IMG/VR virus record: IMGVR_UViG_3300028589_000026
Coordinates: 1-33,779 of that record
Length of the DNA stretch: 33,779 bases
Strand: one strand, 5' to 3'
Origin: a virus
Part shown: positions 7,698 to 31,440 of the stretch, piece after piece
Layout: every line of letters begins with the position of its first letter
Position numbering within the stretch: position 1 is the first letter of the stretch
The notes under the pieces: generated by a model
What the model saw: the letters and a program-made list of their open reading frames with translations, nothing else
Databases searched by the model: none
What the model was told of the DNA's origin: nothing
Program-made: the position numbers and the translations under genes

Positions 7698-8195
7698 TCA
7701 ATCCTTCTTGAACGTGACACCCACCACACCACGGTAAGCTACCGAGTGGATCGCATCGATGTAGAGAACATTGCCATCAACGTAAAGGTCTACTTCACGG
7801 CGTGGCAACCCATTGAGTCCAACGAACTGTTTCCAACGCTGGAAGAGTTTACCCAGCTCATCCTCTTCGGCGAGCAGTTCCTCTTCTTCGTTGGTCAGCG
7901 GGGATTCGGCCAGAGTCAGGTCAACCCCCAGCTTGTCACATAGTGCTTGTTCGTAGACTTCACCCGTCGGGAATACCTCCAGTTCGGAGATGTCCTGCGG
8001 GATACCGGCGAACAACTCACCCAAATCCACACGCTGGACCAGCAGAGCCTCTCTGAGGCTTCCTACGGGCGTGTATTTGAAGTTCTTGTCGTTAAGCCGG
8101 AGCACAGAGCCATAACGTGTGTTAATCGGCTTACAGCTCACGGTAGAGGCTGCCAGACCGACCAACACAGGAATGTTGATCAGATTCAGTTGCAT
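7698..8195 (-). CDS. Hypothetical protein (165 aa)
   Basis: A 165-residue protein starting MQLNLINIPVLVG. The ATG at 8195 overlaps the upstream TGA (TGATG) and has AAGG seven bases before it. A GTG one codon earlier is possible but less likely. The N-terminus is mildly hydrophobic but lacks positive charge before the hydrophobic stretch, so it is probably a buried strand, not a signal peptide. The centre is acidic (NEEEELLAEEDELG). No known motif is seen. It lies between two inner-head-like genes with 2-base and 1-base junctions, so co-expression and a virion or head-assembly role are likely but unproved. Confidence 0.7.
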   Translation of the reverse strand: MQLNLINIPVLVGLAASTVSCKPINTRYGSVLRLNDKNFKYTPVGSLREALLVQRVDLGELFAGIPQDISELEVFPTGEVYEQALCDKLGVDLTLAESPLTNEEEELLAEEDELGKLFQRWKQFVGLNGLPRREVDLYVDGNVLYIDAIHSVAYRGVVGVTFKKD

Positions 8196-9232
8196 CACTT
8201 CACCTTCTTCGTGCAGAGACCCAACAGGTCAACCGTGCGCTTGTTCAGTTTCATGAACTCGAGGTGCAGGGCTTTAACGTTCGTCATGCAACGACGGACT
8301 TCAGCCTTGATCGTTTCGAGTGGCGCTTTCAGCTGAGGGCTTTCTTGACCACTGACCTGAATGAACCGGTTCAGCACCACCAGCGTGCCCTTCTCCAGAT
8401 CGTAAGTCTTACCGCTGAACTCACGGATCTTCTTGTCCATCGAGTTGTACTCGTCGAACAGAGTCTTCAGCTGAGAAGTGGTAATGAAGAAGGTAGCGCC
8501 TTCTTGGAACTTGGGTTGATCGCTGCCAGTTACAAACGACAGAGTACCGCCCTTATTAAGGAGGGTAGCCGAACCGGAGAAATTGGTGGTCCCGGTACCG
8601 TCTTTGCTGAACAGGTCTTCGAACCCTTTCTTGAAGGAGTCAACCACACCCTTCAAGTCTTCAGCCTTGCCGTCCTTATTCGTGTGGGCGTAAATAGCCT
8701 TGAACAAGGTTTGCAGTTCGTCGATGTACTTATCGGCTTTAGCGATGTTCTTCTCGGCGGTCTGCATGACGGTCGTCAGCCACGACAGGTTGACATCCAA
8801 CTTGCCCTGTTTAGGGTAAAGGTAGAGGACATCCTTCGGGTACTTGATCGGACCATCGATAGCACCGTACCCGGCAATCTTTTCCTTTACTTGTTTCTTC
8901 GCGACATCCACTGCCGCTTCCTTACCACTGAAGAAACTCCACAACCACTTGAAGAACTTCTTCACGGTCTGGATGAAAGACTTCACCGAATCAGCAATCC
9001 AAGAAACCAGACCTTCGGTACCTGTCACCTCATAAGTCATCACGCGCGGGCGGTGGTTCAGGATGTGGCCGTAGATAGCCTCCAGACCATCCACGCGGTC
9101 GTTCTCGTTGGAGAGGGCATTCATGACAGGTTCATCCGCTACGGCGTCGTAACCTTCCTGATCCTCCTCATACAACTCCTTCACCGCCGGTGCCACAATG
9201 TGGCGCAGCGGGATCACATTTACACTGTTCAT
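8195..9232 (-). CDS. Putative inner-head protein paralog with G-T-E/G cleavage site (345 aa)
   Basis: Starts MNSVNVIPLRHI at 9232, with GAGAGG nine bases upstream. A longer reading from 9292 is rejected because it begins only five bases after a terminator hairpin and lacks a ribosome site. Residues 1-73 form an acidic propeptide-like segment ending in V-T-G-T-E, then G-L-V-S-W begins an amphipathic, Phe/Trp/Lys-rich helix (about 74-105). The rest is helical and ends in a Lys-rich tail. The same order, acidic leader then G-x-E/G then aromatic-basic helix, recurs at 9371, 20349 and 25681. In phiKZ relatives such proteins are cleaved during head maturation and fill the inner body. It is the first gene after a terminator and so probably starts an operon. 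Confidence 0.8.
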   Translation of the reverse strand: MNSVNVIPLRHIVAPAVKELYEEDQEGYDAVADEPVMNALSNENDRVDGLEAIYGHILNHRPRVMTYEVTGTEGLVSWIADSVKSFIQTVKKFFKWLWSFFSGKEAAVDVAKKQVKEKIAGYGAIDGPIKYPKDVLYLYPKQGKLDVNLSWLTTVMQTAEKNIAKADKYIDELQTLFKAIYAHTNKDGKAEDLKGVVDSFKKGFEDLFSKDGTGTTNFSGSATLLNKGGTLSFVTGSDQPKFQEGATFFITTSQLKTLFDEYNSMDKKIREFSGKTYDLEKGTLVVLNRFIQVSGQESPQLKAPLETIKAEVRRCMTNVKALHLEFMKLNKRTVDLLGLCTKKVK

Positions 9233-9263
9233 TGAAAGCAGCCTCTCGCCAATAGTCAGAGTA

Positions 9264-9293
9264 CATAGCATCGAACAATTAAAAGACGGCATA
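9264..9293 (-). promoter_or_regulatory. Candidate late promoter with two TATG elements
   Basis: On the minus strand TATG occurs at 9293-9290 and again at 9267-9264, between the terminator hairpin and the start at 9232. The phiKZ non-virion RNA polymerase is known to use a very short TATG-type late promoter. The first copy starts three bases after the hairpin. A 4-base match is weak evidence by itself; position is what supports it. Confidence 0.25.
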
Positions 9294-9370: not shown

Positions 9371-10657
9371 TCAGATGTGCGCCTGAACGGCGTCCATGAT
9401 CTGCTTGGCCAGGTAGACGTACAGCTTGGTCATGGTGGTGGTCAGCGCGGAGCTGGACACGAAGATGGCTTTGCACAGGGCGATAGCCTTGTCGTTGTCC
9501 GCCTTCTTGTCGCTGTTGGACTTCGAAGCGACGTTCAGGGTGCCGATCACGCGGTCACGCTCGGACTTCGAGAACTTCTGCTGGACCTTGCTCGAACGGA
9601 TCTCGGTCACGTAGTCGTCGACCGACTTCAGCAGGCCCTTCAGCTGGGTGCTGGTGGCCTTGACCTTGACCGACTTGCCGTCAGCGAACTTCTTGGCTTC
9701 TTCGGTCTTGCCGAAGGAGATCTTGATCGAACGAGCTGCTTTGATGCAGTCTTCGTCTTTCTCGATCTTCTCGTCGAAGACGGCGAAGATACGGAAGCCA
9801 GCGTGGGTGCCGAGAACGGTGTGCTTGTCACCGGTGGCTTTCTCGCTGGTTTTGCCCGCGTCTTTGGCCACGCCTTTGATGTCGCCGATCAGGGCGTTGT
9901 AGGCGGTCTTGAACGCCGAGACGTTGACACCGTCCAGGTTCTTGCCCAGGTCCATGAACTTCGGCAGGGAGTCGTGGGTGATGTCGAACGCGCTGGACAG
10001 CAGCAGCTTGCCGATACCATCGACGCCTTCGGCCTCGTAGTCGCAGCCGACGTTCCAGCCGCCCAGCTTGACTTCTTCCTTCACCTGCTTCTTGTCCAGG
10101 TAGCCGGACAGCATTTCCTTGCGGCGTGCGAGGCCGGAGGCAGCGCTGACCATGCCGACGAAGAAGTTGATCACGGTGTTGAAGATGTGCTTGATGTACT
10201 CGATGGCTTTCGAGGCACCAGCCTTCAGGGTGTCCATGAAACCTTCAACGCCGGTGACCGAGGCCAGGCGAGCGGTGGCGGCGTCGGAGATCGACTCGGC
10301 ACCCAGGGTGGAGAAGTTCTTACCACCCAGCTTGGCGTTCAGGCTCAGGGCACGGTTGTACTTCTGAGCGAAGGCAGTGGAGCTGAACTGGCCGGCGGAC
10401 AGCAGAGCTTCCAGACCGCCAACTTCTTCGGTCAGCTCTTCGACGGTTTCTTCGTGCTCTTTGAGCTCTTCCTGGACTTCGGCAACAGCCTCGGCCAGTT
10501 GCTCGACTTCGGCTACCGATTCGGCAACGTCAGCGCGCACTTCTTCCAGGGCGACTTCGGTGGCCTCGGTCACGGCGCCACCGGTGGAACCTGGTTCTTC
10601 AACAACGGTGCCGTTGATGTGGTCTTCGACACCTTGGAACATAGTCAGAATGCTCAT
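9371..10657 (-). CDS. Putative major inner-head protein paralog with G-V-E/G cleavage site (428 aa)
   Basis: Starts MSILTMFQGVEDH at 10657, with AGGA ten bases upstream; a GTG two codons earlier is less likely. Residues about 28-85 are a Glu/Ala/Val coiled coil of strikingly low complexity (EVEQLAEAVAEVQEELKEHE). This is followed by L-G-A-E/S near residue 121 and V-T-G-V-E/G-F near 138, then an amphipathic helix (MDTLKAGASKAIEYIKH). The mature part is helical and Lys-rich. The acidic leader would be removed by the head protease. Codon choice is unusually uniform (AAG, GAC, AAC, CTG, GTC preferred), as in highly expressed genes. It stands between a pair of perfect palindromes upstream and a strong terminator downstream, which suggests independent, abundant expression. 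Confidence 0.8.
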   Translation of the reverse strand: MSILTMFQGVEDHINGTVVEEPGSTGGAVTEATEVALEEVRADVAESVAEVEQLAEAVAEVQEELKEHEETVEELTEEVGGLEALLSAGQFSSTAFAQKYNRALSLNAKLGGKNFSTLGAESISDAATARLASVTGVEGFMDTLKAGASKAIEYIKHIFNTVINFFVGMVSAASGLARRKEMLSGYLDKKQVKEEVKLGGWNVGCDYEAEGVDGIGKLLLSSAFDITHDSLPKFMDLGKNLDGVNVSAFKTAYNALIGDIKGVAKDAGKTSEKATGDKHTVLGTHAGFRIFAVFDEKIEKDEDCIKAARSIKISFGKTEEAKKFADGKSVKVKATSTQLKGLLKSVDDYVTEIRSSKVQQKFSKSERDRVIGTLNVASKSNSDKKADNDKAIALCKAIFVSSSALTTTMTKLYVYLAKQIMDAVQAHI

Positions 10658-10673
10658 GAGCACTTTTTCCTTT

Positions 10674-10711: not shown

Positions 10712-11728
10712 TCAAGCGAAAACCCCAAGCACACCATGAATGTACTTGTCGGTATAACCGACGACACGTGGGACGAATCCGCTATAAAATGCGAGAGCCC
10801 CCGTATTGCCAGCCATGAGTTTCTCAGCTTCGCCGATGACGGTTTTGCTAACCTGACCCAACTTGCTCAGGTTTGCATCAACCCCCTTGACCATCTCAGC
10901 CCAAGACCGGATGAAACCCAGGTAGTTGTCATAGGATTCCTTTACGCGCTCATGGAGGGCATTGACCTTCTCCAGCTTGTTCAGGATATCCGAGATTTCC
11001 GACTTCGACAGCGTCAGCGTTGCAGCTTGTCCTTCAGGGGAATCCCCCGAGATGGAGTACGTCGGGACGTTGCCTTTCTCAGTGAAGACGAAGACACGTC
11101 CCCCCGGTAAGATGTCAGACTTGTAACTATCGCCTGACTTTTCACCCGGATTGAACACGGGATACCGCAGTTCAGTGAACTCGTCAATGACTGTGTGTAT
11201 CTGTTCGGACTTGCTGACACTCTTCAACTTCTTGAGCGTCACCAGTTCCTTGTCCAAGTGGGCCATCAGTTCCTTCGAGTGTTTGTCGAAAGCTTCCAGC
11301 ACCTTGATCAAGGTGTCCATGTCGTGTTGGATTTCGTGGGGGTTACCCCCCGAGGTGATGAGACCCACCTTGTTGGCCGCAATCTTGATCTCTTGGTCAG
11401 CCACCTTATTCACATCCTTGAGGATGTTCTTGATAAGGGACTGGTTGTCGTTGAACGACTTGGAAACCTGATTGCTCGCCATGGTAATCCCTTTCAGGAA
11501 ACCATCGATCGCTTTGCCGCCGACCCACTTGGTCACGCTGAACAAACCACGCCCCACACTGGTGAGGGTGTCGAGGGCCTGTTCTTTCAGGTCCTCGTTC
11601 CCCGCCACCATGGGAGCTTTGGTCGACCGCATGATCACACCCAGTTCAATCAGCTCTCGCTGATACTGGACGAGCGTGTGGTGTTGATCCAAGCACGCTA
11701 CGTAACTGCCTTTATGACCAGCGCCCAT
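10712..11728 (-). CDS. Putative inner-head protein paralog with G-N-E/D site (338 aa)
   Basis: Starts MGAGHKGSYVACLD, with a GGGGG run four bases before the ATG. Residues 41-46 read V-A-G-N-E/D, in the same N-terminal place where sister proteins carry G-x-E/G. They are followed by a helix with Lys, Trp and Gly (LFSVTKWVGGKAIDGFLKG). The remainder is helical with long Lys/Glu/Leu segments. The last residues (YTDKYIHGVLGVFA) form a hydrophobic helix like the ends of the sister proteins. The Asp after the cleavage position departs from the usual Gly or Ser, so processing here is less certain. It is flanked by other head-type genes with gaps of about 10 and 55 bases. Confidence 0.7.
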   Translation of the reverse strand: MGAGHKGSYVACLDQHHTLVQYQRELIELGVIMRSTKAPMVAGNEDLKEQALDTLTSVGRGLFSVTKWVGGKAIDGFLKGITMASNQVSKSFNDNQSLIKNILKDVNKVADQEIKIAANKVGLITSGGNPHEIQHDMDTLIKVLEAFDKHSKELMAHLDKELVTLKKLKSVSKSEQIHTVIDEFTELRYPVFNPGEKSGDSYKSDILPGGRVFVFTEKGNVPTYSISGDSPEGQAATLTLSKSEISDILNKLEKVNALHERVKESYDNYLGFIRSWAEMVKGVDANLSKLGQVSKTVIGEAEKLMAGNTGALAFYSGFVPRVVGYTDKYIHGVLGVFA

Positions 11729-15594: not shown

Positions 15595-16668
15595 ATGGCT
15601 GATGACCCGAAAAATTACGATGGGTGGCTGAGTCGTACTCCCGGGAATAACCAACCAGAGCAACCCATTTCGCAGGAGAACATAGGGGATTGGTTCAACT
15701 ATGTCTTCAAGGAAAACGGTGGACCAGGTTACGATTCAGCCTTGGTCAACATGCTCCGGGGGATTAGAATTCTGGGCCCGGGTAACTCGATGGCCCCCAT
15801 CCCAGACGACACCATAGGATTAGCGTTTGCCAGCCGTCCTATGCTGAATTTGTCGGACTATAACGTCCAGAAGCACCCCCAGTTGCAAGCGCTGGTAAAA
15901 CCTGCTCGCAATAGTTTCATGGCGTATATAAAAGGCTTGCTAGATCCTGTCTGGGGAGCAGCCAACAGTGGTGACAACACCGCTCTCGATCCACTGAACC
16001 CATGGATCCCCCCGATGACCAACTTCTTGAAGGTCAGTTCGGGGTTCCCTGACCTGAGTTTGGCGGTGGGGAAAAGTAGCCCAGGGTTCCGGGGTGAAAC
16101 CTATTCCTTCGTTGACGGTATCTTGAAAGTCAACTTCGACTTTGATATTCGTCAAAGCTACTACAACACCAAACCGAACTTCATGCCTTACTTGTTCGAG
16201 GTGTGGGTTCACTACATCGAAGCGGTAACGCTCGGTGACGAAGGTATGGAACCGAACTGGGAGGCGCTCGAGTGTAACTACTTGGACTACACCACCCGGA
16301 TCTACCACATCATCATGAACAAGAACATGCGCAACATTGAGTGGATCTTCTGTTGCGGTGGCTGTTTCCCAACGACGTTCCCATCGGGAGCGTTCAGCAC
16401 CATTGACCGCACACAGAACACGTTGCGCGGTCAGGGTCAAGATGAACTTGAAATCAACTTCGCTGCCCAGGGCTTCCGGTTCAGTAACTTGCAGATTGCT
16501 GACCAGTTCAACCGGACGACACTGCGTACTAATCCGAACATGCACCCAAGTGTACGTTCACGGTATTACAAGAAGATGCCGTTCCGGGATTACTACCTCA
16601 GTGGTTACGGATCCTATCCATGGATCAACCTGGACACAATGGAAATGGAATATTGGGGTATTAACTGA
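15595..16668 (+). CDS. Putative virion structural protein (357 aa)
   Basis: Starts MADDPKNYDGWLS at 15595, with AAGG ten bases upstream; a TTG two codons earlier is an alternative with shorter spacing. The protein is aromatic-rich and probably beta-rich, with many Asn, Tyr, Phe and Trp residues and a Cys pair (EWIFCCGGCF) near residue 250. It has no membrane helix or enzyme motif. Its stop overlaps the ATG of the 974-residue gene (TGATG), so the two are translated together and may form one complex. A tail or baseplate component is the likeliest reading, from size and pairing only. Confidence 0.75.
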   Translation: MADDPKNYDGWLSRTPGNNQPEQPISQENIGDWFNYVFKENGGPGYDSALVNMLRGIRILGPGNSMAPIPDDTIGLAFASRPMLNLSDYNVQKHPQLQALVKPARNSFMAYIKGLLDPVWGAANSGDNTALDPLNPWIPPMTNFLKVSSGFPDLSLAVGKSSPGFRGETYSFVDGILKVNFDFDIRQSYYNTKPNFMPYLFEVWVHYIEAVTLGDEGMEPNWEALECNYLDYTTRIYHIIMNKNMRNIEWIFCCGGCFPTTFPSGAFSTIDRTQNTLRGQGQDELEINFAAQGFRFSNLQIADQFNRTTLRTNPNMHPSVRSRYYKKMPFRDYYLSGYGSYPWINLDTMEMEYWGIN

Positions 16669-19592
16669 TGGCACTTTCTCAAAGCGATTTGGAACTGCTA
16701 GCGAATAACCCAGGTCGAGGTATTAACCTCGTCGTTAACGAAATCGAACAGAACTGGTTCAACGGGACCGTGCAGCTGAACAGCAAGTCACACCCGTTCG
16801 TCCTGTCGATGGACTTGATCCTGGGCACCGCACACGGTTTCACCAACCGTCTGTTGGATGCGGTCAGCAAGAACCACCTGCGTCATGCACGCAACGTGTC
16901 TGAGCTGAGCCGCAACATGGGTGATGAAGAGCGTTATGGCTTGTTCGGTTACCCATCGAACTCGTTGCTGCAACTGGCGATGGACGTCAGTACCTTCATG
17001 GAACTGGCCGTTGACCGTGTTGTTCAAGTCGGTACCAGTTCGGTGACGTATAAAGAGCTGTTGATTCCGAAGGACACCGTGTTGCCTGTGATGGGGTATG
17101 ACTTCTCCATCATGAACGGCATCCGTATCCAGTACAACGAGCGTAACGGCTGGGGTGTGATGTACGACGGTGAGACCAACAACCCGTTGGCGCCGATCTC
17201 CAGTAACCTGCTGGACCGTATGTTCAAGCAGGTTGACGACCGCAAGTACATCCTGGTCAACGTTCCTGTCTTGCAGCTCAGCTGCTTGGCGATCGAGAAC
17301 ATAACTTCCAACCAAGCATCGGGTTGTAAAGGTACGTACAGGTTCACTGACCATTTGTTTGGCGTGCGTGCGTTCCTTATCAACGACAGCGGGATGAACG
17401 AGATCCGGGTCAGCTTTGACCAAGACGTGTTCGATCCTCTGGCAGTGACGCTGGCGTTGGATATTGACACGGTCAACGGGAAGATCGCTTACGAGATCCC
17501 GGACGTGTACATCGCTAACGGCTTGGGTCGCGGGACAGTCCGCATCTACACGTACACCACCAAAGGTGAACTGGAGAAAGACCTGACCAATGTGTCCCCG
17601 AGCAAGATCACACCGAACTACCAAGACTACAGCTACGGTCAAGGTAACCTCGGTCCTTACTCCATTCCGCTGCGTAACGCCGGCGGCGTGGCTTGGCAAG
17701 TGATCGAGATGGTCCGGGGTGGTACTAACCCTGTACCGTTCAACGACATGAAGGCGCGTGTGATTGCCGGTCGTCAACAGCGCGGTATCCCAATCACCGA
17801 GACCGCCCTGAAGGGTACCGTTGAGAACAGCGGCTTCAGCCCGGTGAAGGTCATCGACTACATGACCCAGCGTACTTACTCGGTAACCAAAGAGTTGCCG
17901 ATTCAGGATAACAAAGGCTTCTTTGCCCCAATGTCCTGTTTCGTTGGCAGCTACATGGCGTCGGTTAACGATCTGGTTAGCACGGGTGTGGTGTTGGACA
18001 ATGGTACTCGTGTAACCGTTCCGCACAACGTGCTGTTCGACGTGAGTGTGCCTACGTCGCGTCTTGTCAACGCCATCACCATGGCCACGTACAAGAACAT
18101 GTCCAGTGAACAGATTGTAGACCTGCTGGCTAGCCGCACGCTCGTTTACACACCGTTCTACTACGTGATCGATACGTCGGACAAACAGGCGGTGATGCGC
18201 ACCTACCACCTGGATTCTCCAACCATCGACCGTCAAACCTTCATTGACCAAAACCCTGCATTGGGTCTGGCTGTGGGTGTGGGACAGATCGCAATCGAGC
18301 ACCGTGAAGGTGGTTACACCATCACCTTGGTGACGCAGTCGGATAGCGCGTACCGTAAGCTGACGAACGATCAAGTGGGTGTGCAGCTGTCGATCAGTCC
18401 GGTTGACTCTACCAGTACAGCTAGCATTGCCGGTCAGCTGGTTGCCGAGGTAGAAGGTGAACGTGTCTTCCAGTTCCAACTGGATTCCCGTTTCGACATT
18501 GACGTGAACGACGTCATGTATTTCAACAACTTCTTCCAGTTCGGTTCGGTTCAGCTGAAGACGGGTTCTACCCTCTCGACGGAAATGACGTTCATCTTCA
18601 CCACCAAAGGTGACAAGGATATCACCCGGTCGGACATCGACCAAAAGATCGAGCAAGGCATCTTCTCGGTACCGATGGTGGGTATCGTTGAAACCCGTTA
18701 CCAGACCACGTTTGGTAAACGCTTGGCTAACATCTACAGTCGGATTCGTCCGTTGGTGGGTGAAGCGCAGTACAAGCGGTATGACGCGGACGTTCCTGCG
18801 CGTTATTCGACCACGGTGTTTAAACGTGTCGACGGTGAACTGGTGTTCGACCAAGCCACGGGTGAACCTATTAAGGAACACTCGGCAGGTGACATCATCA
18901 TTGGTTCGGATGGTAAGCCTGTGCTGTTGTATCGTCGTGACGTGGACATCGTTTACGAGAACGGCCAACCGGTCATGTTGGAACCGCGTTTCTTGAAGTA
19001 CCATTGGGACTTCATTGCATTCGACGGCAACTACATGTTCAGTAAGGACGACTACGACCTCCAGTTCGCTCAGGACACGAAGAACTACTTCGTTAATGTC
19101 ATCACCCGTCAGCTGGAAGACTTCACGGCACAAGCGCTGGACAACACCGTGCTGTACTACCAGCCGCGCAGTAAGCTGGGCTACCAGCGGGTTGTGGTCA
19201 ACAGCAACTACGAGTCGGTTCTCCGCCAAGACCTGTCGTTCGCTGTAACGTACTACCTGACCGAAGACGGTTACCGTAACCCTGTTCTGCGAGAAGCCTT
19301 GGAGGCCAGTACTCCTCGACAGCTCAACGAAGGAGTCTACAACAAGAAGACCGTCAGTATGGACGCACTGGTGGCTCGCCTCATGGCGAACGCTGGTAGC
19401 CAAGTGGTCAGTGCGAAACTGAGCGCACTCTCGGGTGACAATACAGTGGACGTTATCAGTAACACCGACGACCTGTCTGGTTTCAGTATCCGTAAGCGTC
19501 TGGAACTGAGCAGTGACGGTCTGGTGTCTGTACAGGAGGATATCGACATCATCTTCCTGCCACACGATATCCGTATGACGACCACCATTTAA
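16668..19592 (+). CDS. Large virion structural protein, possibly baseplate (974 aa)
   Basis: A 974-residue protein beginning MALSQSDLELLANN, the largest in the window. It overlaps the upstream stop by one base, with GGGG nine bases before the ATG. It is beta-rich with repeated valine/threonine strands and few cysteines, and has no signal peptide or membrane segment. The N-terminal 120 residues are more helical; a region near residue 380 contains many Gly/Arg (VIAGRQQRGIPITETALKG). Large multi-domain beta proteins of this kind occur in tail baseplates and necks of giant phages. The protein ends at a strong bidirectional terminator. A long antisense frame overlaps it but is a codon-bias shadow. 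The specific identity is uncertain. Confidence 0.8.
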   Translation: MALSQSDLELLANNPGRGINLVVNEIEQNWFNGTVQLNSKSHPFVLSMDLILGTAHGFTNRLLDAVSKNHLRHARNVSELSRNMGDEERYGLFGYPSNSLLQLAMDVSTFMELAVDRVVQVGTSSVTYKELLIPKDTVLPVMGYDFSIMNGIRIQYNERNGWGVMYDGETNNPLAPISSNLLDRMFKQVDDRKYILVNVPVLQLSCLAIENITSNQASGCKGTYRFTDHLFGVRAFLINDSGMNEIRVSFDQDVFDPLAVTLALDIDTVNGKIAYEIPDVYIANGLGRGTVRIYTYTTKGELEKDLTNVSPSKITPNYQDYSYGQGNLGPYSIPLRNAGGVAWQVIEMVRGGTNPVPFNDMKARVIAGRQQRGIPITETALKGTVENSGFSPVKVIDYMTQRTYSVTKELPIQDNKGFFAPMSCFVGSYMASVNDLVSTGVVLDNGTRVTVPHNVLFDVSVPTSRLVNAITMATYKNMSSEQIVDLLASRTLVYTPFYYVIDTSDKQAVMRTYHLDSPTIDRQTFIDQNPALGLAVGVGQIAIEHREGGYTITLVTQSDSAYRKLTNDQVGVQLSISPVDSTSTASIAGQLVAEVEGERVFQFQLDSRFDIDVNDVMYFNNFFQFGSVQLKTGSTLSTEMTFIFTTKGDKDITRSDIDQKIEQGIFSVPMVGIVETRYQTTFGKRLANIYSRIRPLVGEAQYKRYDADVPARYSTTVFKRVDGELVFDQATGEPIKEHSAGDIIIGSDGKPVLLYRRDVDIVYENGQPVMLEPRFLKYHWDFIAFDGNYMFSKDDYDLQFAQDTKNYFVNVITRQLEDFTAQALDNTVLYYQPRSKLGYQRVVVNSNYESVLRQDLSFAVTYYLTEDGYRNPVLREALEASTPRQLNEGVYNKKTVSMDALVARLMANAGSQVVSAKLSALSGDNTVDVISNTDDLSGFSIRKRLELSSDGLVSVQEDIDIIFLPHDIRMTTTI

Positions 19593-19599
19593 AACCTTA

Positions 19600-19633
19600 C
19601 TACCCTACCCACCCTCACGGGTGGGTAGGGTAG
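19600..19633. terminator. Bidirectional terminator, convergent junction 1
   Basis: A perfect 15-bp stem (CTACCCTACCCACCC and complement) with loop TCAC. On the plus strand it is followed within four bases by CTTTTTGCTTTT, a convincing intrinsic terminator. On the minus strand it is followed by TAAGGTTTT, so it can also end the converging unit. It shares arm and loop sequence with the hairpins at 25617 and 32760. Confidence 0.9.
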
Positions 19634-19647
19634 GGGTCTTTTTGCTT

Positions 19648-20352
19648 TTACGCGATCTGGGACTTGAGGTAGTCCAAGAACATGCTAGTGAGTTTCACAC
19701 TGGCACGGATACGTTCCACCGAGTTGGTAACGTCGTACAGACGGTAGTCATTCGGATTCTCGTATTTGTAGAGGCGTTCGAACATGGCCTCTTCCGCCTT
19801 CTTGATCTCGACCTTGTAGTCGGTCATGAAGAGGTAATCACCGTTGTCGATTTCTTCGACCTGATGATCACGCAGGGTTTCCCAGGTGATGATCTCACCC
19901 TCGGCCACCTTCTGACGACCATCGAACCAACCATCACGGATACAGCTGGCGAACCGTGCGGGTTCCTTGCGGAACTCGTTCAGACGGAGGATCGCTTCCT
20001 GATCGTTCAGGTCGTGGGCGTTGATGTAGTCGTAGACCTCGTTCACCTTCTCAGCGATTGCCGGGAAGACTGCTTCGAAGTACGCCAAGGTGTTGGTCAG
20101 GTCTTCACCATCCGAAAGCTTCTTGTTGAAAGGAGCGTTCAGGATGATCTCACCGTTCTCTTTCGGGAACGGGCCCGACAGCCGGGTCTTCATGTTGGTG
20201 GCATCGGTACCCGACCAGTAACGGTCGATAACTGCGTACGCAGCAGTCAACTCGATCCCATTGCCCAGGTGCTCAACCAGCAACTTGGTTTCAGCTTCCA
20301 AGTTATCCAGTTCAGTCAGCGCTGCCTGGAAACGTGTTTCTACTTCGCTCAT
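19648..20352 (-). CDS. Hypothetical protein (234 aa)
   Basis: Starts MSEVETRFQAALTELD, overlapping the upstream stop as ATGA, with GGGGA seven bases before it. It is acidic and helical in the first 45 residues, then mixed, with many Asp, Asn and Tyr residues. It has no membrane helix, cysteine cluster or catalytic motif. It is the last gene of the 23665-19648 unit, directly after an inner-head paralog. The function is unknown; it could be a partner or chaperone of that protein. Confidence 0.7.
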   Translation of the reverse strand: MSEVETRFQAALTELDNLEAETKLLVEHLGNGIELTAAYAVIDRYWSGTDATNMKTRLSGPFPKENGEIILNAPFNKKLSDGEDLTNTLAYFEAVFPAIAEKVNEVYDYINAHDLNDQEAILRLNEFRKEPARFASCIRDGWFDGRQKVAEGEIITWETLRDHQVEEIDNGDYLFMTDYKVEIKKAEEAMFERLYKYENPNDYRLYDVTNSVERIRASVKLTSMFLDYLKSQIA

Positions 20353-21869
20353 AGCGTTTTCCCCACACCTAACTGTTTGACCAGGTTGTTGTAACGGGTC
20401 TTCATGTCGGCGATATTCTCTTCAAACATCTGGTGAGAAGTAGCACCAAAGTTCTCCATGAAGGTCTGTGCATCCGCATCGGGAATCATCTCGAGGTGGA
20501 AGGTCGGGTTACCGGCAACATCCGCCTGAGGGTTCTTACCTTCTCGGCGAGCTTCCAGCATCAACTCACGGAGCTTGTCCATGTCACCGATCAACCCGTG
20601 GAGGTACCACATGTGTGCACGGGCATACCAACGGGACAGTTCGTTGATCTGACGGTCCACCGCCAGCAGCTGACGACTAACGACTTGGCAGAAGTTAGCG
20701 TAGTTACGGATGGTGATGGCCAGTTCCTGGTACTCGACCACCGGCTCAGGAGCACCGTAGTACTCGGACAGAGCACGCGCGCGGTCAGCGTCGGTCTTGT
20801 CAACAGCCTGACCCAACGCCTTCATGTTGATCCCGCGCATGTCGATAGTGTTGTCAGCCAACTCGACGTAACGCAGGTTCAGCTCCTGGATCTTGCTCAT
20901 CATTTCGCCAGCGTTGAACTGGGTCAGCTTGATCGACTCGGCCCGGATAGCTGATTCGAGGTCCTTACGGACTTTGCTGAAACCGTTGGTCAGTTCTTCG
21001 TTGGAGAATTCTACCTTGTACAAGGTAGCCAGCAGCTCACCAACATCCTTCACCACGTTCATTGGGTCCATGGCAAGGATGGCTTCGCGGTTAGCGGCCG
21101 ACAGCTTTTGAACCTCCGGAGAGAATTCACCGGACACGTGCTGTTGCAGCGCCGAGCGCACGCGGGTACGGTCGTACTGGTCTTTCAACACCTTACGGTA
21201 GTTGTCGAGCAGACGGTTCGCTTTGGTCGATGCCTGAGTCAGTTTACCGACGACCTGCTGGAACATCGGGATCGACTTGGCCAGACCTTCGATCGCTTCC
21301 TTGTCGGTTTCGAACTTGGTCTTCATCAGAGTAAGTTGACCGAGGCGGTCTACTTTACCCGGCAGGTTGCCGATGAAGTTTTCCAGGTTGTACTGGCCGG
21401 CAGGGAACCCCAGACTGGTGAGGGTGTTCTTTACTTCACCCTTCAGGCTGTCCAACGAATCGTCGATCGCCTTTTCGATCCGCTCGCTCTTACGGAAGCC
21501 AAAGATACCTTTAACGGTATTGGCTACCCAGTCGAACGCCATGCGGATGTACTTGATGATGTTCTCGACGAAAGTCTTGAAACCTTCGTACATGGTGGAG
21601 AAGAAACCTTCAGCACCGATCACCGCGTTCCGTTTGGACGGGAAGGGATCAAACTCCCGCGCATTGGGGAGGTTGAACTTGGTGGCGATCTCACGCGACA
21701 GAACGCCGAGGCTCAGGGATTCAGTACCCTTTACCATCATGGTGATTTTGTCTTGGTCGGTGTCGTCGTAGACCTCGTCCAGATCCACGAGTTGACGGGG
21801 ATCGTCGTTGGGAACGTACGCGTCAGTCGGAGTCGCCAGTTGCAGGTAAGAGCTAACTGGGTTACTCAT
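20349..21869 (-). CDS. Putative inner-head protein paralog with two cleavage sites (506 aa)
   Basis: Starts MSNPVSSYLQLATPT, with GAGGAA five bases before the ATG and an 8-base overlap with the gene above. The leader is acidic (residues 20-40) and contains V-K-G-T-E/S at about residue 50 and V-I-G-A-E/G-F at 87. An amphipathic aromatic helix follows at once (FSTMYEGFKTFVENIIKYIR), then a Trp/Phe/Lys segment. The remainder is a long helical domain with a Gln/Arg-rich centre. It aligns by eye with the 25681 protein around G-x-E/G-F-F-S. Processing would release a roughly 420-residue mature protein to the capsid interior. Inner-head identity is inferred from this shared pattern. Confidence 0.8.
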   Translation of the reverse strand: MSNPVSSYLQLATPTDAYVPNDDPRQLVDLDEVYDDTDQDKITMMVKGTESLSLGVLSREIATKFNLPNAREFDPFPSKRNAVIGAEGFFSTMYEGFKTFVENIIKYIRMAFDWVANTVKGIFGFRKSERIEKAIDDSLDSLKGEVKNTLTSLGFPAGQYNLENFIGNLPGKVDRLGQLTLMKTKFETDKEAIEGLAKSIPMFQQVVGKLTQASTKANRLLDNYRKVLKDQYDRTRVRSALQQHVSGEFSPEVQKLSAANREAILAMDPMNVVKDVGELLATLYKVEFSNEELTNGFSKVRKDLESAIRAESIKLTQFNAGEMMSKIQELNLRYVELADNTIDMRGINMKALGQAVDKTDADRARALSEYYGAPEPVVEYQELAITIRNYANFCQVVSRQLLAVDRQINELSRWYARAHMWYLHGLIGDMDKLRELMLEARREGKNPQADVAGNPTFHLEMIPDADAQTFMENFGATSHQMFEENIADMKTRYNNLVKQLGVGKTL

Positions 21870-22302
21870 GACCGTTCCTCATTTCCAGGGCGAGGTAATC
21901 AACCAGGTTCTTGAAGGCGTCCAGTTCGGTTGGGTCGTACTTGGACTTGATGACTTCGGTTTCCACCGCACGCTGGATGTCCACCGAGACGGCAAACTCG
22001 TCGTTGGAAGGTACCACGCCACAGTTGGTCAGGTGCTGGCGGATACGACGCAGGCGCAGGCGGGCGGATTCCAGGATCAGTCGAGCCTTGATCGGAGAGA
22101 CCGAGTTCCACTTGTCCAGCATGGCGAAGATGGTACCTTCCTCTTCTTCACCGATCTCCAGACTGTCGTGGAAACGGGAGTGGTGGGATACCACGGCGCG
22201 AACGAACGCCTCTTGAACGACTTCGGTTTGAGCCAAGGCGCAACCAACGCCAAGACCGGTGAGGGATTCACGCAGGGTGATGATACGTGCCAGATGCGAC
22301 AT
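21862..22302 (-). CDS. Hypothetical protein (146 aa)
   Basis: Starts MSHLARIITLRESL, with AAAGGAG six bases before the ATG, a near-ideal ribosome site located in the last codons of the metallopeptidase-like gene, one base away. It is helical and carries an Arg-rich helix in the centre (SARLRLRRIRQHL) that could bind nucleic acid or a partner, plus an acidic stretch (LEIGEEEEGT) before it. No known domain is recognised. Being coupled on both sides, it probably works with the peptidase-like protein or the inner-head protein. Confidence 0.75.
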   Translation of the reverse strand: MSHLARIITLRESLTGLGVGCALAQTEVVQEAFVRAVVSHHSRFHDSLEIGEEEEGTIFAMLDKWNSVSPIKARLILESARLRLRRIRQHLTNCGVVPSNDEFAVSVDIQRAVETEVIKSKYDPTELDAFKNLVDYLALEMRNGHE

Positions 22303-22303
22303 G

Positions 22304-23665
22304 TCAGACTCCTTTGAGCTGTTCGGACAGAACGGTAAGTTCGTGGTTGTTGAGGGCTTGTGTATAATGCTCTACTTCGCGACGTTTAAAGTCACTACCG
22401 GAGAACACCCAACCCATGGTGCGGTACAGTGCGGTGCCTTCATACCACGGTTGAGCCTTCTTGTTGGCTTCCAACAACATGGTGATATCCTTGACCAGAT
22501 CGTTCCGGTCTTTGGTCGGCATTTTCTTGTCTTCTTTGATCCGAGCGATCAGCTGACGAATCGCGTCTTCCATCCGACGGTGGTCAGCGTTGTACACACC
22601 CGAGTAGGCGTTGTTGAAGAAGCCGATGACGAAGGTAAGACCAAAAGTAGCCAGCATGGTCATGAGGATCATGCCCGCACCAACACCGGTGACAGTAGCG
22701 ATCAGCATACCCATGTACATGCCGATCACCGCCATCGAGCAACTCATGATGAAGTTCTCGATAAGTGGCACGATAATCCCACGGTCAGTCAGGGTACCGA
22801 TAGCAGCAACGATACCTTTCGAGCAGCCCATACGGATCGCGTACATGTCGGCCAGTACTTCAGACGTCATGTTAGGTACACCCACACTGAGCGCACGCTG
22901 GCTGTTACGTTGCGAGGTCATCTTGGTGAAGTACAACATGAAGCTTTCGTCATTCTCGCCCTTGGCGAACTCGAGGAGGTCTTCCACGTTACCTGGTTTC
23001 AGACCGAGGATCGTGGCCGTGTCTTTTAGTACCACAACACGATCTTCTGTACGTTTCGAATTCCGGTAGGCGTTGAGTGCAGCCTGAGCGACGATGTTGT
23101 CTTCCATCAGGGTGAGTAACATCACACAACCCGAGAAGGCGTGACCCAATTCGTGACAGCTAGCGCCGGCCATCAAACCTTCCAGCGGTTCACCCCACTT
23201 CTCTACCTGTTTGACAGGGAAGTAGTTTTCCATGTAACGGCAGATACCGAGCTTAATCGGGATGGTCGAGAACGAACCACCGACACGACCAGTGGTGTAG
23301 TCGATACTACCCTTGAAGATCTTCACCTTGTTCTCTTGGTACCAGCGGTACAGTGTCGTCTGGCTGGTGCTGAACCAACGATCCACACCAGCGTTGTTCA
23401 ACACATGGCTCGGCGCAAAGTACCCGGTATCTACCCACAGGTTACCTTCGTCCAAGAACTCGATCGTGACGTTGGTGAAACCAGTGTATGTTGCAATCAG
23501 TTTCAGCAGTGGCTCTTCCACGCTGGGTTCCAGAACAGGACGCCCGTCAACCATACGGATGTGTTCTTTGAAACAAGCTTTCATCTGCTTGTAGAAGTTG
23601 TCGTTCTGGAAATCAATAAATTCGGTTCCTGCCACACTCTTTGACAGAAAATCCATAGAAATCAT
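22304..23665 (-). CDS. Predicted membrane zinc metallopeptidase, M48-like (453 aa)
   Basis: A 453-residue protein with H-E-L-G-H at residues 171-175 in a hydrophobic setting (GASCHELGHAFSGC). About 95 residues later comes S-E-V-L-A-D (Glu269, Asp273). HExxH with a downstream ExxAD is the zinc-ligand pair of M48 (HtpX/Ste24-type) gluzincins. Residues about 303-350 form two consecutive membrane helices (MAVIGMYMGMLIATVTG and MTMLATFGLTFVIGFF). The N-terminal 150 residues are mixed alpha/beta; the C-terminus is basic and helical. The zinc-peptidase reading is mine from motifs alone. It leads a minus-strand unit containing an inner-head paralog, which suggests a virion or membrane-associated role. 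It differs from the serine-type prohead protease of phiKZ. The ribosome site is weak (GGGGG 12 bases upstream). Confidence 0.7.
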   Translation of the reverse strand: MISMDFLSKSVAGTEFIDFQNDNFYKQMKACFKEHIRMVDGRPVLEPSVEEPLLKLIATYTGFTNVTIEFLDEGNLWVDTGYFAPSHVLNNAGVDRWFSTSQTTLYRWYQENKVKIFKGSIDYTTGRVGGSFSTIPIKLGICRYMENYFPVKQVEKWGEPLEGLMAGASCHELGHAFSGCVMLLTLMEDNIVAQAALNAYRNSKRTEDRVVVLKDTATILGLKPGNVEDLLEFAKGENDESFMLYFTKMTSQRNSQRALSVGVPNMTSEVLADMYAIRMGCSKGIVAAIGTLTDRGIIVPLIENFIMSCSMAVIGMYMGMLIATVTGVGAGMILMTMLATFGLTFVIGFFNNAYSGVYNADHRRMEDAIRQLIARIKEDKKMPTKDRNDLVKDITMLLEANKKAQPWYEGTALYRTMGWVFSGSDFKRREVEHYTQALNNHELTVLSEQLKGV

Positions 23666-23748: not shown

Positions 23749-25608
23749 ATGACAACCAACACTTCACCTATTATTGCTAAAGTCTGCAAACACGCAAGTT
23801 ACTCGGTTAGTAAGACTCACAAAAGCGACCTGACTTGCGTAAAGATTACCAACATTCACGAAGACAACTCTCGCAGTAACTCGTTCATTGCGATTAAAGA
23901 TTACAAACAGCCTTACTGGGTTGTTAAAGATGGCAAGCGTAACTTCAAGCAACACAAGGATTACATTGAAGCGAGCATGTGCCGTGAGTACCGTGCTCCT
24001 CGTTGCCAGATTCCGTTTGCGGTTAAGAAGCAACTGTTCGGGGTAGCTGACCACAAGGCTACCATCACTGACGTTGCAGGTAACCAGTTCGTCTTTGGTC
24101 TGGACCAAACTCCTCCGGTTCACATCAAGCAACAGTTCTTCAAGAAGTACGGGGAGTGGCAAGATAAAGAACCGTACACCATGGCCGCCTATGACGTTGA
24201 AGGCGACATGTTCAAGCCGAGTATTGGCGACACTAAACCGGTTACCATGGCGTCGGTTACCTTTAAGGAGCGTGCGTACTTTGCCGGCTTACGTAGCTGG
24301 TACCAAGAGCGTGAGGACGTACTGGCTCAGGAGAACAAGGTCGAACCTCGCAAGATGACCGATGAGATCATCTTGGCTGAATTGAAGGCGGCTGAGAACC
24401 AATACCTCAAGGGTCACTTGGAACGTCGGAAGTGTACTGTTCAGTACGAACTGTTCGACACCCGTGGGGAAGTTGTGCAAGCGTGCATCAACAAGTGGCA
24501 CGAGTGGGAACCGGACTGGGTCACCAGTTGGAACGCGACCTATGACATGGAGTCGAATCACTACTCGTTGGAAGGTGACGGCTTCAATCTGGCAGATGTG
24601 TATTGTGACGAAAGCATTCCACCAGACTACCGTTATTACAAGCTGGATAAGGGTCGTACTCACAAGACCAAGGAGGATGGCTCTAGCAGTCCCCTGGAGC
24701 CGCAAGAGAAGTTCCCTAGCATTCGGACCATGGCCAAGTGGCAGTGGGTTGATGCAATGTCCTTCTTTGCGATTAAGCGAGCGCCTGTAACCGGTAAGCT
24801 GCAAGACTACTCGTTGGAAGGTATTGCCAAGTTCGTTGACGTGCCGGGCAAGCTGTACACCGAGGAAGGGAAGCATCTTCTCCCGGGCACTCCACAGTGG
24901 CATCGTCACATGCAGAAGTATCATCCTTACCTGTACTCCATGTACAACATCGCCGATAACTTCGTTATTGAAGAGATCAACGAGAAGGAGCACGACTTCA
25001 CACTCGGTCTTCCAATGTTGTTGAAATACTCCGAGTACTTCAACTACGTGTCTCAGCCGAAGACCATCAGTGACACTCTGTCGTTCATGGCGCGGGATCT
25101 GGGCTTTGTGTGGGGGAGCACGCCGCGTAACCGTGACAAGGCATTCACAGATAGATTACCGACACTCAGTAACTGGATTGCTCTCCTCGATACTGAGAAG
25201 AACGCCAGCGTTGGTAAAGCGTTGTTTGCGGGCTTGGCGGATGTAATCAGTTCAGGTCGTACGGACTCTTCGGACATTGACGTTGAGGGTGCTTACCCAC
25301 ACGCAACGTTGGCACTGAACGTGAGTAACCGAACGACTCAGATTGAGGTGTACCACATCCAAGGAGCTGACAGTGAGAAGTTCCGAGAGATTGGTGTGAA
25401 CTACGCAAGTAGCGCCGAAGCAAACGCCATGGGTCTGTGCCAAGCCCTGTTCCGCTTCCCAGAAGCAGACAAGCTGGTAGAAACCTTCGAGCGTGTAATG
25501 ATCGAGCAGGGTAAAGGTGAACTGCTTGAACAGATCAAGAAAGGCGCTAAACCGCGTAAACCTCGCATCAACGTTGAAGTAGAAGAAAATACCAAACAAG
25601 CCGCTTAG
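23749..25608 (+). CDS. Family-B DNA polymerase, N-terminal part with exonuclease and palm motif A
   Basis: A 619-residue protein. Exo I is seen as YDVEGD (Asp149, Glu151), Exo II as WNATYD (Asp266) and Exo III as YNIAD (Tyr399, Asp403), close to T4 gp43 YNIID. Polymerase motif A is DVEGAYP (Asp511, Tyr516, Pro517). Together these give a complete 3'-5' exonuclease followed by the beginning of the palm. The protein ends about 100 residues after motif A, with a basic PRKPR segment and an acidic tail. Motif B (K-x3-N-S-x-Y-G) and motif C (D-T-D-S) are absent from it and from every other gene here. So this is the N-terminal chain of a split polymerase whose catalytic remainder must lie elsewhere, or else an exonuclease-like relic. 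Conserved motifs favour the former. It stands alone on its strand, followed by a hairpin. Confidence 0.85.
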   Translation: MTTNTSPIIAKVCKHASYSVSKTHKSDLTCVKITNIHEDNSRSNSFIAIKDYKQPYWVVKDGKRNFKQHKDYIEASMCREYRAPRCQIPFAVKKQLFGVADHKATITDVAGNQFVFGLDQTPPVHIKQQFFKKYGEWQDKEPYTMAAYDVEGDMFKPSIGDTKPVTMASVTFKERAYFAGLRSWYQEREDVLAQENKVEPRKMTDEIILAELKAAENQYLKGHLERRKCTVQYELFDTRGEVVQACINKWHEWEPDWVTSWNATYDMESNHYSLEGDGFNLADVYCDESIPPDYRYYKLDKGRTHKTKEDGSSSPLEPQEKFPSIRTMAKWQWVDAMSFFAIKRAPVTGKLQDYSLEGIAKFVDVPGKLYTEEGKHLLPGTPQWHRHMQKYHPYLYSMYNIADNFVIEEINEKEHDFTLGLPMLLKYSEYFNYVSQPKTISDTLSFMARDLGFVWGSTPRNRDKAFTDRLPTLSNWIALLDTEKNASVGKALFAGLADVISSGRTDSSDIDVEGAYPHATLALNVSNRTTQIEVYHIQGADSEKFREIGVNYASSAEANAMGLCQALFRFPEADKLVETFERVMIEQGKGELLEQIKKGAKPRKPRINVEVEENTKQAA

Positions 25609-25680: not shown

Positions 25681-26718
25681 TCAAACAGCCATCAGAGCCT
25701 TGCCAGGTGGGTTGATGCCGAACACCTTCAGCACCGCACGGCTCAGCTGCGGCATGTAGTCCAGCACGTGTTGCAGGAAGGTGGTGAACTTGGCAGCGTT
25801 GGCCATCAGGGTACGCAGCTCTTTCAGTTCGGCCTGAACGCCGGCTTTGGCGTTGGCGTCGCCTTCGGCCTTGCCCAGATCTTTCTCGACGTCGTCGATA
25901 GCCTTCTGAACCTGACTTTCCAGACCGGAGAACTTGCCGATGAGGGTTTCCACCGCGCCGGTGTAGGAGTGCATCTTCTCGATGGTGTCCTTGGCCTTGT
26001 TCAGGTCTTCAAGATCCTTGATGTTCTCGACAGCACGGATCAGAACAACGCCGTAACGAGCGCTTTCAGCCACACCGCCACCGAAGGCTTTGGTCCACGG
26101 GTGGTTGGCGGACTCGGTTTCCTTCTTGATGGATTCGGCCAGGGAAGCGCCGCCCTTCAGAACTTCCAGGAAGTTACCAACCTTGGTGGCCAGAACGTTG
26201 CGGTCCTTGCCTTTGACCTTGGCCAGCTTCATGGCCGCAGCGCGGTAGCCGGCGACGTCGTCAGCTTCTTCAGCAGCTTTCTTCGCCTCGGCATCGCCGG
26301 AAGCGTTGGCCGCAGCAACCAGTTGCTTCTTGACTTCAGGACCTTTCAGATCCAGAGCGTCTTTGGCAGCTTCCAGAGTATTCTTGGCGGCCTTGGCCTG
26401 CTCCGGCGCTTTCTTCTTGAAGAAGAAGCCCCAGATGTTCTTGAACATCTTCTTGATGTATTCCCAGGTCTTCTTCAGACCGTCACCGATCTTGGAGAAG
26501 AAACCTTCCGAACCGTTGACTTCGGCGCGGGTCAGGGCACCGCTGGCCGACAGAACGCCATGCATGTACTGCTGAGCTTGGGTCAGCGACTCGACGCCGG
26601 TGACTTCTTGCTCCATGGTGTCGTTCAGTGCTTCGAACGCGATTTCGATGTGCGGACCGTCGACCAGACCGTAGCCTTGTTCTTCTTCCAGGATGTCTAC
26701 TACAGGAGTATCGCTCAT
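25681..26718 (-). CDS. Putative major inner-head protein paralog with two cleavage sites (345 aa)
   Basis: Starts MSDTPVVDILEEEQG, with GAGG eight bases before the ATG. The acidic leader holds V-T-G-V-E/S near residue 43 and V-N-G-S-E/G-F-F-S near 71. An amphipathic Lys/Trp/Phe helix follows (KIGDGLKKTWEYIKKMF), ending in FFFKKKAP. The mature part is Ala/Lys/Glu-rich helix, with a hydrophobic C-terminal helix. The second site and helix closely resemble those of the proteins at 20349 and 8195. Codon use is strongly biased to GC-ending codons, as in the 9371 gene, so this is likely an abundant protein. It is the last gene of its unit, beside hairpin 2. Two in-series sites suggest stepwise leader removal. 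Confidence 0.8.
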   Translation of the reverse strand: MSDTPVVDILEEEQGYGLVDGPHIEIAFEALNDTMEQEVTGVESLTQAQQYMHGVLSASGALTRAEVNGSEGFFSKIGDGLKKTWEYIKKMFKNIWGFFFKKKAPEQAKAAKNTLEAAKDALDLKGPEVKKQLVAAANASGDAEAKKAAEEADDVAGYRAAAMKLAKVKGKDRNVLATKVGNFLEVLKGGASLAESIKKETESANHPWTKAFGGGVAESARYGVVLIRAVENIKDLEDLNKAKDTIEKMHSYTGAVETLIGKFSGLESQVQKAIDDVEKDLGKAEGDANAKAGVQAELKELRTLMANAAKFTTFLQHVLDYMPQLSRAVLKVFGINPPGKALMAV

Positions 26719-29681: not shown

Positions 29682-30512
29682 TTATTGAGCAGCTTGGGTT
29701 ACTGGATCGTTGGGAGCTTCGAGCAGCAGCGGACCATCCGCTTCACCGCCCATAGGGGCTTCCAGGTTTTCAGGATCGGCCAGAGCTTCGAGGTCGTCCA
29801 CGTCGGAAGCTTTCATCAGTTCCGCTTGGTCCTTGAAGTCTTGCAGCAGTTCTTTGCTGTGGCCGGTGGCGTACAGCGCACGGATCTCGTCCATACGACC
29901 TTCGTGCAGCGAGGTCATGTACGCATACATGTCGATCTCGGCTGGCTTGTGTTCGAGGACGTACGCTTCGATGATGTCGCGCTGGGAGACGGAGACAGCA
30001 ACGATGTTGTCGCCGTACTCGAGGACCAGGCTGTGCATCACGTCGGCGATATGCAGGGTGATCTCGATGTACTCTTCCGGGGTGTGACCGGCTTCGTGCA
30101 GGGTGATGACGACGTTCACGTCTTCGGCGAACTCGACCAGTTTCTTCTCGTAACCCTCGACCAGTTCTTTCTGTTCAGGGGTAGGGACGAAGCGCCCTTC
30201 GGCGGCCAGACGATTGAAGAGGACAATACCGGAGTGCATCTTAACCGATACAGTGATCATGTCGCTGATGGCTTGGATCAGCTGGGAACCGGAAGGGAGC
30301 TCGGTGGGTTCTTCGCCAGCGGCGCGCTTACCTTTGGCGCGGGCGGCAGCGTCGATGATGTCATAGACCGACTTGCTCTTCTTCTTACCGGGTTGGGGGG
30401 TAGGAGCAAACGCGAACGCCGAAGCACGACGAGCCTTCTTCAATTTCTCCTTGGAAGCCTTCTTGCGAGCGGCTTGTTTCTCGGCACGACGTTGCTGATG
30501 TTTAGTGCTCAT
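29682..30512 (-). CDS. Hypothetical protein with basic N-terminus and acidic C-terminus (276 aa)
   Basis: Starts MSTKHQQRRAEKQAAR at 30512, with AAGGGA eleven bases upstream; the open frame to 30980 crosses a divergent gene and is rejected. Residues 1-65 are extremely basic (Lys/Arg/Ala), followed by a helical core (75-215) and an acidic Pro/Leu/Glu tail. This bipolar charge suggests a scaffold-like or DNA-contacting protein. An HEAGH sequence occurs at 139-143 but is followed by T-P-E-E and lacks a recognisable third ligand, so I do not call it a peptidase. It is the first gene of the 30512-27469 unit. The function is unknown. Confidence 0.75.
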   Translation of the reverse strand: MSTKHQQRRAEKQAARKKASKEKLKKARRASAFAFAPTPQPGKKKSKSVYDIIDAAARAKGKRAAGEEPTELPSGSQLIQAISDMITVSVKMHSGIVLFNRLAAEGRFVPTPEQKELVEGYEKKLVEFAEDVNVVITLHEAGHTPEEYIEITLHIADVMHSLVLEYGDNIVAVSVSQRDIIEAYVLEHKPAEIDMYAYMTSLHEGRMDEIRALYATGHSKELLQDFKDQAELMKASDVDDLEALADPENLEAPMGGEADGPLLLEAPNDPVTQAAQ

Positions 30513-30552
30513 TATGCTATGATTCCCTTTAACTACTACGAGTATAAACCCG
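30513..30552 (+). promoter_or_regulatory. Divergent start region with two TATG elements
   Basis: This 40-base gap separates divergent genes. On the plus strand TATG occurs at 30513-30516 and 30518-30521, upstream of the start at 30553. These fit the short late promoter known for phiKZ non-virion polymerase. The plus-strand start has only a weak ribosome site (ACGAG). Confidence 0.3.
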
Positions 30553-31440
30553 ATGCTTATCGAGCGCGAAGATGCGGTTGTTCTGGAAGAAGGTGAATAC
30601 CTGGCCGACTCTGTAATCGGCGGGCTGTGGACCAGCTTCCGTAAAGCAATTCCGCCTATGCAGGCTACAGAATTAAACAAGGCGTTTAATTTAATCATGT
30701 TGGCAGACGGTGACAGTCTGATGCCTAGCCAGCTGGCAACCGTGTTGGTGGATGAATACACGGACACACCAAGTAAGAAGCAGAGCGCATACGTGGTTAT
30801 CGCAACCAATATAATCGAAGTGCTCAAAACGATGGGGGTTACCCTTAACGAAGACGTAGCCGGTGAAGACAAACTTTCCGAGATGGCTACTCTGCTCGAC
30901 TTCTTCTTCGAGCTGCGTGAATACCAAGACCTTATCGGTCTGAAGGGCTTGCTGGAGTCGTACGACATTCCCCCTGTCAACCGCTACCTGCAAGCGATGA
31001 AAGTGTTCTGGGGTGAAGAGTTCGACATCAGTGAGTTTGAATGCCTGATCGAAGATGTGTCTGAAGTGACCCTCAAGTCGATCAAGGACGCTCTCTTCAA
31101 CCCGGACGACGTAGAAAACCCACCAGAGCCTCTACAGCGCCGTATCGTTGCGAATAAGGCTTTCCTCGAAGGTAGCCTTGCGTTTGGTCACGTGACGCGT
31201 AACGGGCAGCTGGGCGGCTCTATGACGAGTTTCCTGAGCTTCTACAAAGCCGAGCTGGATGAGATCCTCGAGGAGGACATTATCAAGTACGGCAAAGAAA
31301 TCGTGTGTTTCTTCATCATTAGCGAGATCAACAATGAGTGGCTAAAGGATAAAGCGACTCAGTACTTGTATTCGATCATCTCCGACGTCATCGCTTTGGT
31401 GAAGATCGAAGCCCTCATTGAAGAGGTAGTGCTCCCGTGA
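30553..31440 (+). CDS. Hypothetical acidic protein coupled to RNA polymerase subunit (295 aa)
   Basis: A 295-residue acidic, largely helical protein starting MLIEREDAVVLEEG. No membrane segment or known motif. Leu/Ile/Glu helices predominate, and the C-terminus (IISDVIALVKIEALIEEVV) is a long hydrophobic-acidic helix. Its TGA overlaps the GTG start of the RNA polymerase beta'-like gene, so the two products are made together. It could be a subunit or assembly partner of that polymerase, since the phiKZ-type enzymes include subunits with no cellular homolog. That is inference from coupling only. Confidence 0.75.
   Translation: MLIEREDAVVLEEGEYLADSVIGGLWTSFRKAIPPMQATELNKAFNLIMLADGDSLMPSQLATVLVDEYTDTPSKKQSAYVVIATNIIEVLKTMGVTLNEDVAGEDKLSEMATLLDFFFELREYQDLIGLKGLLESYDIPPVNRYLQAMKVFWGEEFDISEFECLIEDVSEVTLKSIKDALFNPDDVENPPEPLQRRIVANKAFLEGSLAFGHVTRNGQLGGSMTSFLSFYKAELDEILEEDIIKYGKEIVCFFIISEINNEWLKDKATQYLYSIISDVIALVKIEALIEEVVLP

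Follow-up and report, generated by a model that had tools for sequence, protein, structure and literature searches.

A conserved, apparently active M48-like zinc peptidase encoded among the head genes of a giant phage related to phiKZ

Why should a giant phage encode a putative membrane metallopeptidase among the genes for its head, and where would such an enzyme act? The question is raised by a 453 aa product, read as an open reading frame from an ATG start, in a virus record of 33,779 bases (the whole of which was analysed, hereafter the window) whose proteins match phages of the phiKZ group. The initial annotation had described a membrane peptidase amid head genes and without an established role, and the gene context bears this out, as neighbouring genes in the window match virion and internal-head families (Table 1) and the phiKZ orthologue, gp084, is annotated as a structural head protein. 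The gene order beside the head proteins was fixed in every phage examined. In the inspected loci the divergent neighbour is variously annotated as DNA polymerase, ribonuclease, ribonuclease H-like or hypothetical, with phiKZ gp083 a virion structural protein, and the peptidase gene is followed by a protein of ~134-168 aa and then, in those loci whose fetched stretch extends that far, by larger proteins, many of them annotated as virion structural.

Scans for sigma-70 promoters and terminators gave results at chance level. A 15-pair hairpin followed by a T-rich tract lies at 19600-19633, where the peptidase unit and a 974-aa gene converge, and could serve as a transcription end. That 974-aa structural gene (16668-19592) is overlapped in antisense by a 925-aa open frame without a Pfam match (16788-19565, minus), probably a by-product of codon bias. 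Elsewhere in the window, the listed start of the open reading frame at 29682-30980 (minus) overlaps a plus-strand gene at 30553, and the true start of this gene is probably an internal ATG (MSTKHQQRR).

Table 1. Features of the peptidase gene and its neighbours, in window coordinates; a slash within a motif marks the predicted prohead-protease-like site
Feature	Position	Strand	Basis
M48-like zinc peptidase gene (orthologue EL gp52, phiKZ gp084; phrog_2767)	22304..23665	minus	ORF, family matches
Predicted N-terminal peptide, residues 1-15, ending VAGTE, prohead-protease-like site	23621..23665	minus	conservation, motif, disorder in model
HELGH, residues 171-175, two zinc-ligand His and catalytic Glu	23141..23155	minus	H, E, G, H 42/42
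EVLAD, residues 269-273, third zinc ligand E269 and D273	22847..22861	minus	E, D 42/42
Hydrophobic (membrane) hairpin, residues ~305-354, between third ligand and plug	22604..22753	minus	AlphaFold2, hydropathy
YNADHRR, residues 358-364, Y-[D/N]-x4-R replacing M48 plug HPx4R	22574..22594	minus	Y 42/42, R 41/42
146-aa virion protein gene, adjoining the peptidase gene downstream, in the place of phiKZ gp085 (phrog_14520)	21862..22302	minus	
506-aa virion structural protein gene (phrog_14541), site VIGAE/GFFS	20349..21869	minus	
234-aa gene, unknown, end of peptidase gene unit	19648..20352	minus	
DNA polymerase family gene (phrog_3011), divergent from peptidase gene, same place in relatives	23749..25608	plus	

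The product matches the profile of phrog_2767, a family of unknown function, over nearly its whole length (residues 8-451, E=2.3e-89). Searches by tblastn with the peptidase returned matches in 170 phage records, and with a divergent family member as query 218 records, PHIKZ084 among them. The closest annotated relatives are phage EL and near-identical phages at ~50%, and one IMG/VR contig is closer still at 64%. That the family consists of peptidases is not a new proposal, since Iyer et al. 2021 (PMC7824862) report that group 1 jumbo phages conserve an uncharacterised zincin-like metallopeptidase, AMR59696.1, which might act in maturation, and several genome annotations point the same way: the Moabite orthologue is annotated as M48, HtpX being its HHpred match, that of AerS_266 as a CAAX prenyl protease, and that of Proteus phage 10 as a beta-barrel assembly-enhancing protease. 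AMR59696.1 is SEGD1 gp047, an orthologue of the peptidase studied here, and the family described there (SEGD1 gp047, phiKZ gp084, phrog_2767) is the same one, being alike in profile, gene order and motifs. The novelty first accorded to the protein therefore holds for the lack of an established role, but not for its identity, already given by others as zincin, M48 or CAAX protease. For the plug change, the hairpin position and the N-terminal cleavage-like site, no earlier description was found for the family in these annotations and published passages.

Conservation was assessed across 42 sequences from the window and IMG/VR, with 14-64% identity to the peptidase. HELGH at 171-175 and E269-V-L-A-D273 are present with the residue numbers originally assigned to them, and HExGH is found in all 42, with no homologue lacking HExxH. 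Residues H171, E172, G174, H175, E269, D273 and Y358 are invariant across the set, while A272 and R364 are each kept in 41 sequences. Because the catalytic residues are invariant at this level of identity and the place of the gene is kept, the motifs are not ascribed to chance. The protein is best explained as a head enzyme of the phage, a divergent and probably active zinc peptidase of M48-like type.

With respect to M48 (PF01435), both HExxH and a third-ligand Glu within ExxAD are present, but the plug HPx4R is replaced by Y[D/N]x4R (YNx4R in the peptidase itself), for which reason the protein is here called M48-like and not filed as an M48 member. HPx4R is conserved throughout M48, and in BepA its His is a fourth zinc ligand (PMC7950410). 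The phiKZ-group family thus has Tyr-Asn or Tyr-Asp where M48 enzymes (HtpX, BepA, Ste24/ZMPSTE24) have His-Pro, whereas HExxH, ExxAD and an Arg at the sixth position past the plug residue are common to both, the spacing of six between Y358 and R364 holding in 42/42 and equalling the His-Arg distance of HtpX and BepA. In astacins zinc is bound by a tyrosine, and by analogy Y358 could also be a zinc binder.

Profile comparisons gave a graded picture. The peptidase has no M48 match in Pfam; 5 of 17 annotated family members match Pfam M48 at E<=1, and only that of Moabite is at the cut-off (score 20.4 against 20.3), the others falling below it. A weak Pfam match to DUF2232 and an NCBIfam match to GlpB were judged to be chance. 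ZMPSTE24 is recovered by the family profile, the two zinc motifs of each lining up, and in a PDB sequence search a larger profile ranks it at E=5e-4. A designed helical repeat did equally well there, and the aligned motifs were therefore used for this comparison and not the E-value alone. When HtpX and BepA were each aligned as a single sequence by hhalign, the HExxH region was covered and nothing else. Two further phage proteins are found by the family profile, AR9 gp51 (hhalign 97.1%), which is above the Pfam M48 cut-off, and phiR1-37 gp204 (hhalign 97.6%), which is annotated as structural. Both resemble the peptidase, with HEIGH, ExxxD and a profile match of ~97%, but they keep HPx4R at the position taken by Y[D/N]x4R in the phiKZ group and stand in a gene order unlike that of the phiKZ-group peptidase, and in AR9 gp51 the interval from third ligand to plug is shorter and without the long hairpin. 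AR9 has a second zincin, gp117 (L086:2155-3126), directly downstream of its major head protein; this is also above the Pfam M48 cut-off, and HPx4R was not found in it.

The predicted fold was modelled with AlphaFold2, giving pLDDT 78.9 and pTM 0.78 with 42 sequences and pLDDT 83.9 and pTM 0.80 for a core fragment. The two membrane helices proposed from the initial reading are supported by modelled helices at residues 282-326 and 330-354, and by a 19-residue segment of mean hydropathy >=1.5 between E269 and Y358 in 42/42 homologues, such a segment occurring elsewhere in the protein in 4/42. An HtpX-like topology is not borne out, as in HtpX hydrophobic segments precede HExxH and also separate it from the third ligand, whereas that of the peptidase family comes after the third ligand and ahead of the plug, an interval of 71-110 residues in the family against 54 in HtpX and 45 in BepA. 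Foldseek matched phage homologues, with the zincin of Bacillus phage AR9 at 3.5e-4, but against the PDB neither the full model nor the core fragment (residues 55-303) retrieved an M48 structure, only chance helical matches, and the anticipated structural likeness to HtpX/Ste24 was not recovered. Assignment to the M48 type is supported by HExGH, ExxAD and the AR9 gp51 profile match, and weakened by the absent HPx4R and by this PDB search.

At the N terminus, E15 is the most conserved residue among positions 2-45 (38 of 39 aligned), and when upstream starts are read S/A/G-x-E occurs near the start in 40 of the 42 sequences, the exceptions being Goslar (orthologue gp67), with T-M-E, and one sequence without the site. 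For gp175, the serine prohead protease of phiKZ, the motif is likewise S/A/G-x-E. Across the proteins of the window V-x-G-x-E was observed 16 times against 3.7 expected, mostly in inner-head-type proteins, and the prohead protease of this phage probably cleaves at it. Sites of the inner-head type read VTGTE/GLVS, VIGAE/GFFS and VNGSE/GFFS, that of the peptidase VAGTE/FIDF, and residues 1-15 of the peptidase are disordered in the AlphaFold2 model. From these sequence patterns we infer that the peptidase may be cleaved after E15; in the orthologues the predicted cut would follow E15 in EL and E10 in phiKZ gp084. V-x-G-x-E also lies near the N termini of the inner-head-type proteins at 8195-9292, 9371-10663, 10712-11728, 20349-21869 and 25681-26718 (all minus).

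The reading tentatively favoured here, held at somewhat short of an even chance, is that of a virion-packaged, processed M48-like peptidase that would be delivered with the DNA and work either at the inner membrane of the host or at the early vesicle. Under this model the phage serine prohead protease would cut off the N-terminal peptide as the head matures, the peptidase would exit the head together with the DNA, its hairpin would enter the inner membrane of the host or the one bounding the early phage infection vesicle, and the plug centred on Y358 would there shift away from the active site, allowing cleavage of membrane or membrane-bound proteins, of the host or co-injected by the phage, in entry or vesicle formation. 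This reading is favoured because the catalytic residues are invariant, the hairpin is universal and S/A/G-x-E nearly so; because V-x-G-x-E is common to the peptidase and the inner-head proteins of the window; because the profile matches AR9 gp51 and phiR1-37 gp204; and because of the structural annotation in phiKZ and phiR1-37, together with reviews describing injected head proteins and inner-membrane-derived vesicles that contain virion proteins. Against it, the injected proteins that Fossati et al. 2023 tested do not include gp084 by name, the PDB fold search yielded no M48 match, AR9 gp51 indicates that M48-like phage proteins need no long hairpin, and Goslar, in which the vesicle is best described, lacks S/A/G-x-E. 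The host of AR9 is Bacillus, which makes an outer-membrane target unlikely to be ancestral. A more specific version, in which removal of the N-terminal peptide activates a delivered membrane peptidase with a tyrosine plug that remodels the host inner membrane, so as to form or open the vesicle seen early in infection by nucleus-forming phages, is considered unlikely.

Among the alternatives, a maturation peptidase, which within the prohead would cut proteins of the head or inner body in parallel with the serine prohead protease, is a serious possibility if a doubtful one: it would fit the fixed place of the gene among head genes, the published extensive proteolysis of the heads and the suggestion made for this family by Iyer et al. 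2021 (PMC7824862), and the hairpin may on this account hold the prohead to the host inner membrane as it assembles. However, these phages possess a serine prohead protease already, and its motif agrees with the mapped sites; the peptidase itself carries that motif and so looks like a substrate, and a hydrophobic hairpin in 42/42 would be superfluous inside a capsid. The combination of M48-like motifs and a membrane hairpin could instead indicate a late quality-control peptidase of the host inner membrane, present in particles incidentally and similar in role to HtpX, which works on inner-membrane proteins (PMC7950410), but the strict linkage to head genes, the cleavage-like site and the structural annotation of orthologues make this distinctly improbable. 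Least probable, and by our estimate very unlikely, is an inactive structural protein keeping its zinc site for folding only; loss of the plug histidine and a fold unmatched to M48 would be in keeping with it, but E172, the general base, is not expected to bind zinc and is nonetheless invariant in 42/42.

Taken on its sequence features, the peptidase is a conserved and apparently active enzyme of a giant phage related to phiKZ. Phages of the phiKZ type wrap their injected DNA in a vesicle derived from the host inner membrane, and a head-linked peptidase with a hairpin is a concrete candidate in this process, open to knockdown or to inactivation through a single residue. With tyrosine standing in for the plug histidine, the family would further provide a natural experiment on what keeps M48-type enzymes inactive.
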